Part shown: one piece after another, positions 11,802 to 29,338 of the stretch | Layout of the letters: each line of letters starts with the position of its first letter | Numbering within the stretch: the first letter of the stretch is position 1 | IMG/VR virus record: IMGVR_UViG_3300044911_002329 | Span: 1-29,338 of that record | Source of the DNA: a virus | Strand: one strand, 5' to 3' | DNA: 29,338 nt | Notes under the pieces: generated by a model | The model's input: the letters and a program-made list of their open reading frames with translations, nothing else | The model's database searches: none | What the model was told of the DNA's origin: nothing | Made by a program: the position numbers and the translations under genes

Positions 11802-14095
11802 GCTTATATTTTAATACATTGGCAGGTACGGCCGGATCCGCTGGCAGTACGGACGCTACTGGCTCTGCCGCTAGGTTTAGCGGCCCCTACGACGTCTCAA
11901 CTGATTTGTCGGGTAATGTTTTTGTGGCGGATACTAATAACCACACTATCCGCAAGGTAACGAGTGCAGGCGTAGTGACCACCATCGCCGGCACCGCTGG
12001 CGCTAGTGGGAGCACAGACGCCACCGGCTCCGCCGCTAGATTTAAAAATCCCTATGGCATTTCAGTAGATGCTGCAGGCAATATCTTTGTGTCAGATACA
12101 AATAACTACACTATCCGCAAAGTAACTAGCGCTGGCGTAGTAACTACACTTGCAGGCTCGCCTGGCTCTACTGGTAGCACCGACGCTACTGGCTCTGCTG
12201 CTAGGTTTGGTACTCCTTATGGGTTGTCAGTTGATACTGCGGGGAATGTTTTTGTAGCGGATAGGGGTAACCACACCATCCGTAAAGTTACTAGCGCCGG
12301 AGTTGTTACCACGCTTGCTGGACAAGCTGGCTCTGCTGGCAGTACCGACGGTACTGGGTCTGCCGCTAGGTTTAATCAACCCAACGGAATTTCGGTTGAT
12401 ACTGCTGGGAATGTTTATGTTGGGGATATATACAACCACACCATCCGAAAAGTGACGAGCGCTGGCGTAGTTAGCACCTTAGCAGGCTTGGCTGGCTCTG
12501 CTGGCAGTACCGACGGAACTGGCTCAGCTGCTAGGCTTAATCATCCCCATGGCGTCTCAGTGGATACGGCAGGCAATGTTTTTGTATGTGATCTATATAA
12601 TCACACCATCCGCAAGGTGACGAGCGCTGGCGTGGTTACTACTGAAGCAGGGCTTGCTGGTAGCGCGGGCTCAAACAATGGTCTAGGCACTGCAGCTAGG
12701 TTTTATTATCCCCATGGCGTCGCAGTTGATGCGACAGGCAATGTTTTTGTGGCGGATACTTTTAACGCCACCATTCGCGTCTCCGTTACCTCCGCACCTG
12801 CAACGGTCACTCTTTCTAACTTATCTAAAACCTATACTGGATCTGCCCAAGCGCCCACCACAACCGTCTCTCCATCTGGCCTTGCCATCGAGCTAACTTA
12901 CACAGGCACCGCAGCCAGCTTGTCGGCACCCGTCACCGCAGGATCCTACGTAGTCACCGCCAGCATTGTGGATAATTTCTACTATGGCAGCGCCAGCGGC
13001 GTAATCACAATTTCTAAGGCATCACAAACAATCACTTTTGCGTCCGTGCCCAGCAAGTTCGTTGGATCTGGGCCTTTCACAGTTGCGCCTAGTTCTACAT
13101 CAAACCTCACCGTCGCCCTTTCCTCCAGCAACACTGCGGTCGCTACAGTGTCTGGCTTTTCTATTTCGCCCATCGGAGCTGGCACCACCACCATCTCAGC
13201 CACCCAAGCTGGCGACGTTAACTACCTCGCGGCCGCCACCGTCACTCAAGTTCTTACCGCGACCACTGCCCCAATCGCACAGACCATTGCCTTTGCCGCC
13301 CTTTCTCCTCGTCGGGTTGCGTCATTAAAAGACGTCTACTCGGCCGCTTCTGTTATCGCCTCTAGCACTAGCCTTTCTTTTGCAGACGCGACTAGCGTGG
13401 CCCAGGCAAACGCTCGTTCTAACGGATCTTTTGCTTTGGTGGCTACCGCATCTTCTGGATTGCCCGTCACTTTCACATCTACCGTTACTGGCGTTGCCTC
13501 TATCGTGGGTAATATCTGCACACCGGTAACGCCGGGGGTGACCAACATTGTGGCCGCGCAGGCTGGCAACAATGCTTACACTGCCGCTACTAGCGTAACG
13601 CAATCCCTCGTCATCGTGGAAAAGCAGTTTGCTTGGCTAGATCTGCGGTGGGAGCTGACCGATCTACAGATCGACGCCCGTACCCGTGTCGTCACAAGCG
13701 CGAAAGGTAATGGCGCCGTTCTTACCATTCGCCAGGGTGACGCTCACGACATCGCCGTTTTCTTTACCGATCCAGCCGGAGCCGCGATCCTCATGGCTCC
13801 TTCCGCCCTAAAACTTTGTATTCGCGAAAAAACAAATCGGCGTCCCGTTATTCTGGAAACCACCGCCTTTACCCCAGCAGACTTTGGCGGGTTTGATCCG
13901 TACTATCAAATCAGCTTCACCGCGGACAACGATTCACTCCAACGCTTTGTCGCGTTTAATGGCGTAGCCGACAACTCTGACGCTATCCCAGCCATAGGCG
14001 AAGTCGAATGGACTTACGGCGGCAAGGTCTACAGCTCCAAACCATTCACCGTGAATATCGTTCCAGAAATCGAACGGGAAATATCGGACGTCTAA
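11798..14095 (+). CDS. NHL-repeat / MBG-domain virion adhesin
   Basis: This 765-residue protein begins with six tandem NHL-type repeats of 55 residues (about 8-337), each with the core GNVFVADTNNHTIRKV, predicted to close into a six-bladed propeller. An MBG-like Ig domain follows (about 334-406, SKTYTGSAQAPTT) and further Ig/Big-like strands to about 620. The last ~125 residues (QGDAHDIAVFF, KPFTVNIVPEI) resemble the BppU-like fold of the neighbouring genes and may anchor it to the tail. There is no signal peptide, as expected for a virion protein. NHL propellers usually bind ligands or other proteins, so this could contact a host surface component. It overlaps both neighbours. Confidence 0.65.
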   Translation: MSLYFNTLAGTAGSAGSTDATGSAARFSGPYDVSTDLSGNVFVADTNNHTIRKVTSAGVVTTIAGTAGASGSTDATGSAARFKNPYGISVDAAGNIFVSDTNNYTIRKVTSAGVVTTLAGSPGSTGSTDATGSAARFGTPYGLSVDTAGNVFVADRGNHTIRKVTSAGVVTTLAGQAGSAGSTDGTGSAARFNQPNGISVDTAGNVYVGDIYNHTIRKVTSAGVVSTLAGLAGSAGSTDGTGSAARLNHPHGVSVDTAGNVFVCDLYNHTIRKVTSAGVVTTEAGLAGSAGSNNGLGTAARFYYPHGVAVDATGNVFVADTFNATIRVSVTSAPATVTLSNLSKTYTGSAQAPTTTVSPSGLAIELTYTGTAASLSAPVTAGSYVVTASIVDNFYYGSASGVITISKASQTITFASVPSKFVGSGPFTVAPSSTSNLTVALSSSNTAVATVSGFSISPIGAGTTTISATQAGDVNYLAAATVTQVLTATTAPIAQTIAFAALSPRRVASLKDVYSAASVIASSTSLSFADATSVAQANARSNGSFALVATASSGLPVTFTSTVTGVASIVGNICTPVTPGVTNIVAAQAGNNAYTAATSVTQSLVIVEKQFAWLDLRWELTDLQIDARTRVVTSAKGNGAVLTIRQGDAHDIAVFFTDPAGAAILMAPSALKLCIREKTNRRPVILETTAFTPADFGGFDPYYQISFTADNDSLQRFVAFNGVADNSDAIPAIGEVEWTYGGKVYSSKPFTVNIVPEIEREISDV
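11819..12808 (+). repeat. Six tandem 165-nt repeats encoding NHL units
   Basis: Units begin at about 11819, 11984, 12149, 12314, 12479 and 12644, exactly 165 nt apart, and keep the reading frame. DNA similarity between units is high in the segment encoding NHTIRKVTSAGVVTT and in the GSTD.TGSAARF segment. The last unit diverges after its TIR codons, where the propeller ends. Such repeats can gain or lose whole units by recombination without frameshift. Confidence 0.9.
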
Positions 14096-20355: not shown

Positions 20356-20691
20356 ATGAAACTCCGCCAGGAGAACCGAGCTCTTTCACTTCGCCAATTA
20401 GGCGCTGCTTACGGCCTCGGCTATGTGCGAATTAAGCAAATGCGGGAACTGTCAGGCTTTCCGCTGATTGCTGGAAAGATAATGCCCTCTGATTTTGATC
20501 AATGGCGACTGACGCAGACTGGCCTAAATTTACCGCGTCCCGCAGATCGTCTACGCAGTGCCTCTGATACAACTCGTGCACTAAAGTCGACGAATGATTC
20601 ACGAGTCTCATGGCAACGGATTGCGAGCAACCTGAAAGCCGAAGCCTGGTTACACGAGTTACACGCAGGGAGTGAAAACAGTGACGTTTAA
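20356..20691 (+). CDS. Excisionase-like HTH protein overlapping integrase antisense
   Basis: The ATG at 20356 gives a protein that starts at the fold; an in-frame ATG at 20326 is an alternative with a GGAGAG-type ribosome site upstream. From 20356 the protein has a helix-turn-helix (LSLRQLGAAYGLGYVRIKQM) and a wing-like segment (GFPLIAGKIMPSDFDQW), a layout seen in excisionases and other MerR-like small DNA-binding proteins. Its position next to the integrase and attP supports an excisionase or recombination-directionality role. The last ~260 nt lie antisense to the 3' end of the integrase gene, including its catalytic tyrosine codon, so the C-terminal half may be under dual constraint or unimportant. 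Confidence 0.5.
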   Translation: MKLRQENRALSLRQLGAAYGLGYVRIKQMRELSGFPLIAGKIMPSDFDQWRLTQTGLNLPRPADRLRSASDTTRALKSTNDSRVSWQRIASNLKAEAWLHELHAGSENSDV

Positions 20692-21529
20692 GACCGCATA
20701 TATCGAGCAGGCGACGCCAGCAAAGCGAAGCTCGCGTGCGGGGCACTTCGCAAGTGATCTCGCGGCCCTCGGCCTTCATTCTAGCCAGCATGGGTTCGAG
20801 AGCGGCCGGGATGGGAATCGAGAAGGATTTGCCGGCGCCACCCTTGGGACAGGGGAAGGTAAGGACGCGATTCTTCAGATCCACACACTCAAGCGGGATC
20901 TGTGTCTCTCTCAGGCGACAGCCCGTAGCCAGGGCGATCTCAAAGCTGATTCGCATCCATTCGGGCACGCCTTCCACGGCCAAAGCCTTCCGGGTAATTT
21001 TTATTTCATTGTCCGAAAAGACGGGTTTTACGCGGGCTATCGGGCCCCTTTTAATTCTGTAATCCAGAAGGGCGACAGAATCCATCTTGCCAAGAAGTCT
21101 GCCCTGGCGGTGAATCCATTTCAGAATCTTCAGATCTTGGCAGGCTTGGTTCCTGCCCGCCTTACCGCCGGACGTGCGGGGGAGGCTTTGGCGCCATTTC
21201 AAATAAATTTCACAATCGGATGGAGAAAACGCTTGCAGACTGATTTTTTTCTCACTAATAAATCTCCCCAGATGACGCCACGAGTTCCTGTAATAAATTT
21301 TTGTCAGAGGAGAAACGGGATGATTTTCAATCAAATCATCAACCCAATCGCTGCCGCAATCTTTGCGCTTTTCATTAACGCCAAGTCTGGCGGCCTCGGC
21401 CGTTGCCTTCGCGCGGTGCAGGGTATTGTCGATTCGGTATCGCGTACTTTTAGTGCGCCACTTGCCCGTGGGATCTTTGAAGCGAATGTAGAACCACGGA
21501 TTGCCTTTCTTAATGTAGGAATAGGCCAT
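20432..21529 (-). CDS. int: Tyrosine-recombinase integrase
   Basis: The 365-residue protein has an N-terminal arm-binding-like region (YIRFKDPTGKWRTKSTRY, about 14-31), a SAM-like core-binding domain (about 60-150), and a catalytic domain with R205 (ATGCRLRE), likely K229 or K234, the HSLR box (H286, R289), H312 (VNHSS) and the nucleophile Y321 (HELYQRH). All expected catalytic residues are visible, so it should be active. It drives integration between attP and the host tRNA gene. The start lies about 90 bp from the tRNA fragment at 21622-21646, a usual int-attP spacing. Its 3' end overlaps the excisionase-like gene on the other strand. Confidence 0.9.
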   Translation of the reverse strand: MAYSYIKKGNPWFYIRFKDPTGKWRTKSTRYRIDNTLHRAKATAEAARLGVNEKRKDCGSDWVDDLIENHPVSPLTKIYYRNSWRHLGRFISEKKISLQAFSPSDCEIYLKWRQSLPRTSGGKAGRNQACQDLKILKWIHRQGRLLGKMDSVALLDYRIKRGPIARVKPVFSDNEIKITRKALAVEGVPEWMRISFEIALATGCRLRETQIPLECVDLKNRVLTFPCPKGGAGKSFSIPIPAALEPMLARMKAEGREITCEVPRTRASLCWRRLLDICGLKRHCFHSLRVTRVTRLRLSGCSQSVAMRLVNHSSTLVHELYQRHCVDDLRDAVNLGQSASVAIDQNQRALSFQQSAESLTVPAFA

Positions 21530-26192: not shown

Positions 26193-28147
26193 TCGCACCC
26201 CTCCCACCCGCAATCGAAGCGATCCATCGGAACGGAGCCGCTGAAGGCGAGCGCAACACGCAACTTTTTAAGCTGGCCTGCCAATGGCGCGACCAAGGGC
26301 TGACGGAGTTCGACGCAACGACTAACGCAGAGGAGTGGGCCTACAAGGTAGGGCTATCGCAGAACGAGGCAGTAGGTGCAGTCAGATCCGCATTCAGCAA
26401 GCCAGCCAGAGAGCCGTGGAAGCCGAAGGCCAAGTATGCTTATCAGAATGGGGCGATCGTTCGTGAGGATCTGCCAGTGCCGCCTATGCCTATCAGCGTG
26501 GAAAGTGGCCCGGTAGATAAATTCCTGACCACGTGTTTCGACGTAGGCGATCAGATTAACATCTGCCGATCGATTAAAGATGGCGACCGCGAACGGCCGG
26601 ACGGTGCTGGGGACACGCGAAGCCGGGAGGAGTGGCTAGAGCTGTTTAAAGGCGACGGGTTGAAGGAATGGCAAGGCGATGCAGTAGGCGTCTATGTGTC
26701 GATCAACGCTAACAACGGGAAAGGGCGGGCTGCAGAGCACATCACGAAATATAGGCACTGCCTAATCGAGTTTGATGAAAGCACGATGGCTGAACAGTGG
26801 GCAATTATTAAGCGCAGCGGCCTGCCTACGTCGTCTATCATTAAGAGCGGATCGCGCAGTTTGCACGCCTTTGTTGAAGTTAGGGCAGCAAATGCCAAGG
26901 AGTTTGCCGAGCGAGTGGCGTTTATTTACAAACACCTTGAGCACACAAAGCTAGATCCTGCCAATAAGGACGCAGGCCGGTTGTCGCGGTTGCCAGGGGC
27001 GATGAGGACGGCCACAGGATTGCAGCAGGAGTTAGTCGAGTGTGGCGCACCTACGCTGACCTACATGGAGTGGATGGAGCGCACGATCTACGGTGATATT
27101 CCAGAGCCGTATAGCTGGGAGCAGTTGGTTAATTTCAAGGAGGATGCCGATATAACGCAACTACTAGGCAAGCGGTGGATCTGCCGTGGCGGTTCAGCGT
27201 TGTGGGTGGGTAGCAGTGGCCTTGGTAAGAGCGTGCTGTGCTTACAGGCCGCTATTACATGGGCGGCTGGGCGTGATCTGTTCGGAATTAGCCCACACGG
27301 CAAGCCGTTAAAGTCGCTAATCGTGCAGGCAGAGAACGATGAGGGGGATGTGGCAGAGGCGTTGCAGGGCATCTTAAAGGCGCTGGATTTGACCGCAGAG
27401 GAGCTGGATCGGGTGAAGCAAAACATTGTGATCGTGCGTGACTGCACGTCCACAGGTGAACGGTTCGTGGACAGGATGCGTCGCCTAGCTGAAAAACATA
27501 AGCCCGACTTAGCCTGGGTAGATCCGTTGCTGGCGTTTATCGGTGGCGACTTATCCAGCCAAGAGACTGCCGGTGGCTTTTTGCGTAATTTGCTTAACCC
27601 ACTCGCCCTATCTGGAGGATTTGCTTGGATGCTTATGCACCATACGCCAAAGCCAACACGGGACGGCAGCGGTTACCAAGGGCACGACAAGGCGTATAGC
27701 GGATTTGGATCGAGCGAGCTGACGAATTGGGCGAGATCCGTTTTAATGCTGTCGCCTTGTGGCCAGGATGAGCAAGGAACGTACACATATAAGCTAGAGG
27801 TGACCAAGCGCGGAAAGCGGTCTGGATTGCGTTCTGGCGTAACTGCGAGCGATTTAATTGCGAGCAAGACGCAGCCGCTAGTTCACTTAAAGCATGCCGA
27901 CAAAGGCATGGCGTGGATTGAGGTGGGAGCGCCTGAGAAGTCAGTAGGCCGCAGGGCAACGTCGATTGATTGGGCAAAGCTACCTGAAGGGGCAAAGTAC
28001 ACCCAAGTTGTTACATTCGTACAACATGCCACCGGGTTGCAGGAACGCCAAGCGAAGGCCCGCGTGAAGCAGGCTAAAGATGACGGTTTAATCGAAGAAG
28101 CCAGCGATGGCTTATTCAGCAAAAAGGTGACAAATGAGCCATTTTAG
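26189..28147 (+). CDS. Primase-helicase (RepA-like AAA/RecA-fold ATPase)
   Basis: The 652-residue protein has an N-terminal helical part (1-80), a prim-pol/AEP-like region (about 160-300) with LIEFDE (192-197), SIIKSGSRSLHAFVEV (216-231) and DAGRLSRLPG (261-270), then a RecA-type ATPase with Walker A GSSGLGKS (341-348) and Walker B LAWVDP (D445), and a long C-terminal region with a probable winged helix (QERQAKARVKQAKDDGLIEE). Such fused enzymes unwind DNA and make primers for phage replication. It closes the operon and is followed by the repeat-rich non-coding stretch, a likely origin. It begins in an ATGA overlap. Confidence 0.8.
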   Translation: MIAPLPPAIEAIHRNGAAEGERNTQLFKLACQWRDQGLTEFDATTNAEEWAYKVGLSQNEAVGAVRSAFSKPAREPWKPKAKYAYQNGAIVREDLPVPPMPISVESGPVDKFLTTCFDVGDQINICRSIKDGDRERPDGAGDTRSREEWLELFKGDGLKEWQGDAVGVYVSINANNGKGRAAEHITKYRHCLIEFDESTMAEQWAIIKRSGLPTSSIIKSGSRSLHAFVEVRAANAKEFAERVAFIYKHLEHTKLDPANKDAGRLSRLPGAMRTATGLQQELVECGAPTLTYMEWMERTIYGDIPEPYSWEQLVNFKEDADITQLLGKRWICRGGSALWVGSSGLGKSVLCLQAAITWAAGRDLFGISPHGKPLKSLIVQAENDEGDVAEALQGILKALDLTAEELDRVKQNIVIVRDCTSTGERFVDRMRRLAEKHKPDLAWVDPLLAFIGGDLSSQETAGGFLRNLLNPLALSGGFAWMLMHHTPKPTRDGSGYQGHDKAYSGFGSSELTNWARSVLMLSPCGQDEQGTYTYKLEVTKRGKRSGLRSGVTASDLIASKTQPLVHLKHADKGMAWIEVGAPEKSVGRRATSIDWAKLPEGAKYTQVVTFVQHATGLQERQAKARVKQAKDDGLIEEASDGLFSKKVTNEPF

Positions 28148-28296
28148 AGTTAGTGCAATAACTATTACTGCACTAGTGCAGTATTGCGGAGCATGTAGGT
28201 GCAGTAATAAAGGCCCTTTAGGGCCTATTATTGCACTAATGCAGAAGGCCGTTTCCATTACTGCACTAACGACTGCACTTAGGGGGTTAATCTAAT
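28148..28296. promoter_or_regulatory. TTACTGCAC iteron-like array, candidate origin or operator
   Basis: This 149-nt gap between genes holds TTACTGCAC or its complement GTGCAGTAA, exact or near exact, at 28153, 28165, 28176, 28199, 28228 and 28258, plus a shorter copy at 28271. Two copies form an 18-bp palindrome, TACTGCACTAGTGCAGTA (28166-28183). Sites like these are typical of replication initiator binding or multiple operator sites. The region lies directly after the primase-helicase gene and before the DNA-binding protein at 28297, both natural partners for an origin. Confidence 0.6.
28199..28236. repeat. Long imperfect hairpin inside the repeat array
   Basis: GTGCAGTAAT with an AA bulge and AGGCCC pairs, across a TTTA loop (28217-28220), with GGGCCT and ATTATTGCAC. 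That gives 6 GC-rich pairs and 10 further pairs (one G-U), so two of the array's sites are its outer arms. The core AGGCCC-TTTA-GGGCCT is also terminator-like, followed by ATTATT rather than a T run. It could end the upstream operon or be an origin hairpin. Confidence 0.6.
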
Positions 28297-28788
28297 ATGA
28301 TAGATCAGCAAGCGTTAGAACGAATCCCTTGCGGTTCGGCCCACATATCCACCCGGATCGACGGCATAGCGGATCTAGTCCATGAGGCGTTCTGTGAGCT
28401 GGGTCTAACTGTTACAACGTCGTCAGTGGCTTTAACCACACAGGTATTCCATTACCTTATAACTAAGGCGCCAGACCATCCAGCCGTTCAGAACATGGCC
28501 GACACGTTGGAGCAGTCTGTGCTGGCGGTCGTGCTTAACAGGTCGACCAAGTCCATGACCCAGCTTGCAAGCGAACACAAGATTACCAAGCAGGCTTTTA
28601 GCAAGCGGGTGCTCAGTCTAACTGATCGCCTTGGTTTGCCTGTCAGAGCACAGAAAAGCCAAAAGGCTCGTGAGGCATACGACCTCAGAGCAAGGAAGCA
28701 CCACGACAAGCGGCGTCGTCAGATTCCTAAGTTTAACAACGCCGCATTATTGAAAGGCAGGGACAGATGCAAGAACTCAAAGAAGTAA
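28297..28788 (+). CDS. DNA-binding regulator/initiator candidate (HTH)
   Basis: A 163-residue protein with a clear ribosome site (AGGGGG, 28281) before the ATG. It has two helical blocks; the second contains a helix-turn-helix (TQLASEHKITKQAFSKRVLSL) resembling sigma-factor region 4 or FIS-like HTH, followed by a highly basic tail (RARKHHDKRRRQIPK). It starts right after the TTACTGCAC array and could bind it, as an initiator or a regulator of its own gene. The next gene begins inside its end (22-nt overlap). Confidence 0.5.
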   Translation: MIDQQALERIPCGSAHISTRIDGIADLVHEAFCELGLTVTTSSVALTTQVFHYLITKAPDHPAVQNMADTLEQSVLAVVLNRSTKSMTQLASEHKITKQAFSKRVLSLTDRLGLPVRAQKSQKAREAYDLRARKHHDKRRRQIPKFNNAALLKGRDRCKNSKK

Positions 28789-29228
28789 TTAAAAAGCTAA
28801 ACAAGAGGCGTACCGAAACGCTTGAGCAGATGGGTGAGGTGATTGGCTTGGCAGCACAGGCCGGTGCCATCATATCTAACGCACGAGATAAAGGTGAGAA
28901 CGTGTCTGCGTTGCTAGAGTCGGTTGATCTAACTGATGAGCAAGGCAAGCGGTTAGAACGTGTAGCGGCACATCAGAAGAAACTGCAAGACGGTGACCCA
29001 ACCGCCTTGCGCCAGATCATGCTGTGGACAGAGATGCTTCCCGATCCGATCACGACATCCGTACCAAGCGAACGCAAACCGTTCTTCTTTCCGCTGATTA
29101 AGGTTAGTCAGTGGTTCCTGAACCGATCCAAGCCTGAAGCCTGGACAGCCGACATGCGTACAGAGTTCATCCGCTACGCAGAGCCGATCGCTAAGAAGTA
29201 CACTGAGCTGACTGGCAAAGGCTCTTGA
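28767..29228 (+). CDS. DUF3102-like protein, putative
   Basis: A 153-residue protein with GGCAGGGA just before the ATG. Its first 85 residues resemble the DUF3102/ParB-like helical pattern (LGQMGEVIGLAAQ type, AIISNARDKGENVSALLESV, TDEQGKRLERVAAHQKKL), and the second half is aromatic and basic (FFFPLIKVSQWFLNRSKPEAW). Proteins of this kind lie near plasmid or phage replication genes. The function is not established. It is probably co-transcribed with the preceding HTH gene. Confidence 0.45.
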   Translation: MQELKEVIKKLNKRRTETLEQMGEVIGLAAQAGAIISNARDKGENVSALLESVDLTDEQGKRLERVAAHQKKLQDGDPTALRQIMLWTEMLPDPITTSVPSERKPFFFPLIKVSQWFLNRSKPEAWTADMRTEFIRYAEPIAKKYTELTGKGS

Positions 29229-29230
29229 GT

Positions 29231-29338
29231 ATGCGTGATAAAATTCTATTGAGTAGGAGTCGTCAAAATTTCTTGAGTAGGAATTTTAATCCGACACAAG
29301 GAGTCTCCTTGAGTAGAAACATCGCGGTGGAAACGACT
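29231..29338 (+). CDS. Short open frame with LSR repeats (3' partial)
   Basis: An ATG at 29231 opens a frame of 36 codons to the window end without a stop. It encodes three LSR peptides (ILLSRSRQNF, FLSRNFNPTQG, VSLSRNIAVE), matching DNA repeats TTGAGTA at 29225, 29249, 29273 and 29309, spaced 24, 24 and 36 nt. A TTG at 29225, overlapping the previous stop, is an alternative start. If not coding, the same repeats could be binding sites. No ribosome site is evident. Confidence 0.35.
   Translation, partial: MRDKILLSRSRQNFLSRNFNPTQGVSLSRNIAVETT

Follow-up and report, generated by a model that had tools for sequence, protein, structure and literature searches.

A 149-nt repeat array that fills the gap between a primase-helicase gene and a gene for a basic HTH protein is probably a replication origin, with the adjoining primase-helicase as its initiator, acting through its C-terminal domain (Table 1). 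The array was found in the window, a stretch of 29,338 nucleotides of viral DNA. An origin function is suggested by the anatomy of the array and by the precedents of SaPI, SCCmec, pRN1 and PLE, and the C-terminal tail as the binding partner of the array is well supported by comparison of related loci. Further, there is about an even chance that the locus represents a widespread, undescribed module, in which a RepB'-type primase, a RepA-type helicase and a swappable tail are combined with an iteron-hairpin origin, and in which the tail-origin cassette has been exchanged repeatedly.

Table 1. Coordinates of the primase-helicase gene, the repeat array with its elements, and the HTH gene in the window.
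Feature	Position	Strand	Remarks
Primase-helicase gene, 652 aa	26189-28147	+	primase ~110-300, RepA-type RecA-fold helicase ~324-490, variable C-terminal domain
C-terminal ~60 aa, predicted winged helix, proposed array reader	27965-28144	+	AlphaFold2; covariation with array
Repeat array, proposed replication origin	28148-28296	.	149-nt gap; conserved in 49 distinct aligned sequences
Repeat copy TTATTGCAC	28153-28161	-	at most 1 mismatch to TTACTGCAC
Repeat copy	28165-28173	+	at most 1 mismatch to TTACTGCAC; one of the two palindrome copies
18-bp perfect palindrome TACTGCACTAGTGCAGTA	28166-28183	.	two repeat copies, 28165-28173 (+) and 28176-28184 (-)
Repeat copy	28176-28184	-	at most 1 mismatch to TTACTGCAC; other palindrome copy
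16-pair hairpin	28199-28236	.	arms 28199-28216 and 28221-28236; repeat copies in both
Hairpin tip AGGCCC-TTTA-GGGCCT, loop TTTA	within 28199-28236		
Repeat copy	28199-28207	-	at most 1 mismatch to TTACTGCAC; in hairpin arm
Repeat copy	28228-28236	+	at most 1 mismatch to TTACTGCAC; in other hairpin arm
Half repeat copy	about 28236-28244		
Repeat copy TTACTGCAC	28258-28266	+	at most 1 mismatch
Weaker repeat copy CGACTGCAC	28270-28278	+	two mismatches; missing from some relatives
Basic HTH protein gene, 163 aa	28297-28788	+	not array partner by comparison

Six copies of TTACTGCAC with at most one mismatch, plus one or two weaker ones, were located in the array in both orientations, in agreement with the seven copies or variants counted in a first-pass annotation of this DNA. 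The perfect palindrome made of two copies, the 16-pair hairpin that carries copies in both arms and the placement of the array between the two genes were also as that annotation had described them. The pairs of the hairpin include one G-T, and the stem contains a 2-nt bulge. The density of repeats was far above chance: the six copies in 149 nt compare with at most two per 149-nt segment in 40 first-order Markov genomes, and the most repeated 9-mer occurred nine times in the array but at most five times in 194 other segments. Within the 29.3-kb window TTAYTGCACTA was confined to the array, and each of ten related 31-37 kb contigs likewise contained it in a single cluster. The array folded as single-stranded DNA with a z-score of -4.5. 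A simple hairpin scan, in which the bulge is penalised, gave this hairpin a low rank; the folding z-score and pair covariation were used instead.

When relatives with the same array type (type A, see below) were compared, the gap was almost always exactly 149 nt. The alignment of 49 distinct sequences showed that the repeats and the hairpin arms were near-invariant, with much of the spacer variable. The hairpin tip changed almost only as matched pairs (AGGCCC/GGGCCT, AGGGCC/GGCCCT, TAGGCC/GGCCTA, TGGGCC/GGCCCA and AGGCTC/GAGCCT), and 99.9% of the cells were paired; both sides had changed in 49 cells (0 of 500 shuffles). Neither shuffled nor slid controls approached the observed number of paired cells or the covariation score. 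Compensatory pairs would fit an RNA as well, and two terminator-like matches were found at the array on the minus strand. However, we give next to no weight to a role of the hairpin in transcription termination or as an RNA element, as no terminator-like site was found on the plus (gene) strand of the array, an Rfam search of the array gave no match, and the repeats, which lie beside the hairpin arms and extend into them, differ along with the tail of the protein. A DNA search of the array against phages returned chance-level hairpin matches only.

The primase-helicase matched AAA_25 in Pfam (5.6e-20) and the DNA primase PHROG 2597 (4.6e-48). Among matches to its predicted structure, the S-2L PrimPol ranked first (5.5e-6); RepB' of RSF1010 was matched with E-values of 5.4e-5 (3h25) and 4.8e-4 (3h20), and RepA of RSF1010 more weakly than the primases (1olo, E = 0.004). 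By predicted structure, the enzyme is a RepB'-like primase and a RepA-like helicase fused to a DNA-binding tail. The AlphaFold2 model of the tail, of medium confidence (pLDDT about 73-86), has an H-H-E-E core with a predicted recognition helix at about QERQAKARVKQAK. Compared with the PDB, this model gave weak matches to winged-helix DNA-binding domains, none of which passed an E-value of 0.001. A sequence search against the PDB and a search of the tail alone against phages gave no match. Cultured relatives of the enzyme, among the listed records, were about 25-29% identical over 50-61% of its length.

To compare arrays with their neighbouring proteins, we collected several hundred related loci from viral contigs and genome contigs. 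Four array types were distinguished: A (TGCAC), B (CTTGAAGG, with B' sub-variants), C (CTATC; few near-identical 9-mer copies per array) and D (TTTGTCTG). Array type agreed with the type of the C-terminal domain in 169 of 169 loci, including 28 with a STAYR helix that the first B-type pattern missed and that were concordant when typed by eye. When the tails were clustered at 45% identity, ignoring the DNA, the resulting groups each shared one repeat. The rank correlation with the 6-mer content of the array was 0.66 for the tail and 0.085 for the HTH protein. The corresponding partial correlations were 0.405 for the tail (0 of 200 permutations), 0.243 for the enzyme body and -0.008 for the HTH protein (137 of 200 permutations); the value for the body, which also correlates somewhat with the array, counts against a tail-specific reading.

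The exchange of tail and array was also evident in individual loci. In 158 locus pairs the enzyme bodies were at least 85% and the HTH proteins at least 90% identical while the tails were less than 35% identical, and the mean array similarity was 0.06. In two locus pairs (L017/L027 and L285/L274), body and HTH gene were nearly alike and tail and array differed. DNA identity in these pairs was about 0.9 until roughly 250-300 bp ahead of the stop codon of the enzyme gene, where it dropped to 0.4, and it rose again at the start of the HTH gene. When mapped on a phylogeny of the enzyme body, the array type changed at least 25 times, compared with 56-71 times with shuffled labels; the phylogeny was a quick one, and errors in it may account for part of this count.

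The first-pass annotation had proposed an origin with the HTH protein encoded at 28297 as initiator or, alternatively, an operator array for that gene. The origin is retained here, on the basis of anatomy and comparison. The HTH protein as the partner of the array, whether as initiator or as repressor, was rejected because the similarity of arrays was independent of the allele of this gene. The position of a basic HTH gene next to the array speaks for such a role; however, the TTAYTGCAC array was kept where homologues of the HTH protein were only 51-54% identical, and at 93-98% identity the arrays could differ wholly (CTTGAAGGT in L017 and L036, CTATCGATAGG-like in L027 and L033). We therefore regard either role of the HTH protein as extremely unlikely.

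The tail codons and the array are separated by zero base pairs, and a single crossover moves both. Because they touch, co-transfer is expected even without function, and covariation by itself does not allow function to be told apart completely from linkage. Array and tail might thus travel together by linkage in mosaic phages while a host protein or another phage protein binds the repeats. Three observations argue for reading of the array by the tail instead. First, the repeats and the ERQAK helix motif were kept in L291, L293 and L309, in which tail identity was down to 43-47%. Second, copies within one array tended to share a variant (AA, AG or GG), and this variant matched the tail subtype. 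Third, crossover junctions were common right after the array and were never seen between tail and array. Further, one would not expect a host factor to differ in step with the tail. Linkage with a different binder is thus very unlikely in our assessment.

An array read by the tail might instead be mainly regulatory, i.e. an operator or switch between replication and packaging genes. The array occupies the leader of the HTH gene, whose homologue in a relative opens a series of genes that extends to a putative small terminase and a large subunit resembling terminases, and covariation with the tail fits this possibility equally well. However, a consensus scan found no promoter-like match in the array. 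Further, an origin is favoured by the conserved hairpin, the fusion of primase and helicase domains and the precedents of SaPI, pRN1 and RSF1010, and we consider a mainly regulatory role rather unlikely. A switch of GC skew was absent at the array in five long contigs, which speaks against an origin, although the surrounding genes run in one direction and the skew proved uninformative.

For the origin, we infer the following steps of binding, helicase loading, hairpin priming and origin activity. The C-terminal winged-helix domain would bind the TTAYTGCAC repeats, whose arrangement in pairs and palindromes would serve to load the ring of the RepA-like helicase. This helicase would open the DNA, and the N-terminal RepB'-like primase would start primers at or near the central hairpin. 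In RSF1010 (IncQ), one protein binds the repeats, a second is the helicase, and a third, the primase, begins at stem-loops (PMC4234260). The primase and helicase folds of that plasmid are alike to those predicted here, and its oriV likewise combines repeats with a hairpin. In contrast, RSF1010 uses three proteins (the RepA helicase, the RepB' primase and the iteron binder RepC), whereas here there is one fused chain with a short winged-helix tail, and the repeats lie directly 3' of the gene and enter the hairpin arms. The three roles of RSF1010 would here lie in one chain.

The first-pass annotation had also spoken of a new origin type, which overstates the case: initiators are already known that recognize repeats lying immediately 3' of the gene encoding them, and in PLE a DNA-binding domain is exchanged together with its origin. 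For both SaPI Rep and SCCmec Cch2, it is the C-terminal domain that recognizes repeats immediately 3' of the respective gene (PMC7581432). The position of the iterons is the same here, where their reading by the tail is indicated by covariation; however, these two proteins belong to a different family of initiator helicases (Cch2 has been assigned to the D5 helicases; PMC7581432) and lack the RepB'-RepA make-up. ORF904 of pRN1 is a primase-helicase-winged helix protein with an origin stem-loop just after its gene, and a similar arrangement has been suggested for several phages (PMC4234260). Domain order and stem-loop position are alike here, the winged helix being predicted, but pRN1 has an SF3 helicase and an origin without iterons. 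The alpha protein of phage P4 likewise unites primase, helicase and winged-helix origin binder, and repeats lie in its origin (PMC4234260). This one-protein organization, with a predicted winged helix, and the origin repeats are shared here, although the primase of P4 alpha is of the bacterial Toprim type. The SF3 helicase of the P4 alpha/pRN1 class was not found in our enzyme, whose helicase is AAA_25/RepA-like, and P4 alpha was absent among the sequence or structure matches listed. In PLE, the RepA_N domain covaries with its origin (PMC8263062). The joint exchange of DNA-binding domain and origin, with the rest of the protein kept, is the same as here; however, PLE is a satellite and not a phage, and its initiator is a separate protein in which the RepA_N DNA-binding domain is at the N terminus.

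In the open-access papers searched we found no account of this enzyme make-up together with an iteron-hairpin origin and frequent cassette swaps. What appears to be new is the combination of such a protein with a hairpin surrounded by iterons, and the swapping of the cassette in nature. The repeated exchange raises the question of which pressures favour new origin specificities; perhaps it is driven by defence that targets origins or by competition among phages infecting the same cell. The module, if real, would offer a natural set for deciphering a protein-to-DNA recognition code. Since origin, proposed reader and natural specificity variants lie side by side, recognition can be tested by swapping the tail of about 60 residues.

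To our knowledge, the origins of most uncultivated phages are unknown; the locus suggests a rule for finding them, namely to look just 3' of genes for primase-helicases of this family. Contigs of Verrucomicrobia, Planctomycetota and Lentisphaerae encoded distant homologues (about 33-47% identity), and in these contigs a hairpin, often with an CCCTTTAAGGG- or CCCTACGGG-like tip, frequently lay directly 3' of the gene together with locus-specific repeats. Two of the homologues (L316 and L317) had no array after the gene; this, like the scarcity of near-identical 9-mer copies in type C arrays, counts against the origin reading. Eight further records came from seven cultured phages and one Deinococcus plasmid, and in six of these the most repeat-rich 250 nt of the locus lay directly after the gene. 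A repeat or hairpin segment right after this gene is thus frequent, not universal.

A second array (29225-29316) contains four TTGAGTA(G) copies, at 29225, 29249, 29273 and 29309, with the unit TTGAGTAG, which is unrelated to that of the first array. The spacing is mostly 24 bp, and up to six copies were present in relatives, in which this array lies upstream of a putative small-terminase gene. It tracks the allele of the downstream genes and not the primase-helicase, indicating that the two arrays have different partners; the second array is a candidate packaging (cos/pac) or regulator site.

Elsewhere in the window, a 365-aa ORF on the minus strand (20432-21529), oriented against its neighbours, gave weak matches to Pfam phage integrases (8e-6, just below the cut-off), which raises the possibility of a temperate virus. 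Two ORFs at the beginning of the fragment (1-2125) had glycosyltransferase-like matches, the first of them weak. A 165-bp tandem repeat (11840-12758, 5.6 copies) lies inside the ORF of a 765-aa NHL beta-propeller repeat protein. Direct terminal repeats were found at the ends of four of five related contigs (the L397-L398, L401-L406 set), 116-123 bp in three and 51 bp in one, consistent with closed or terminally redundant genomes.
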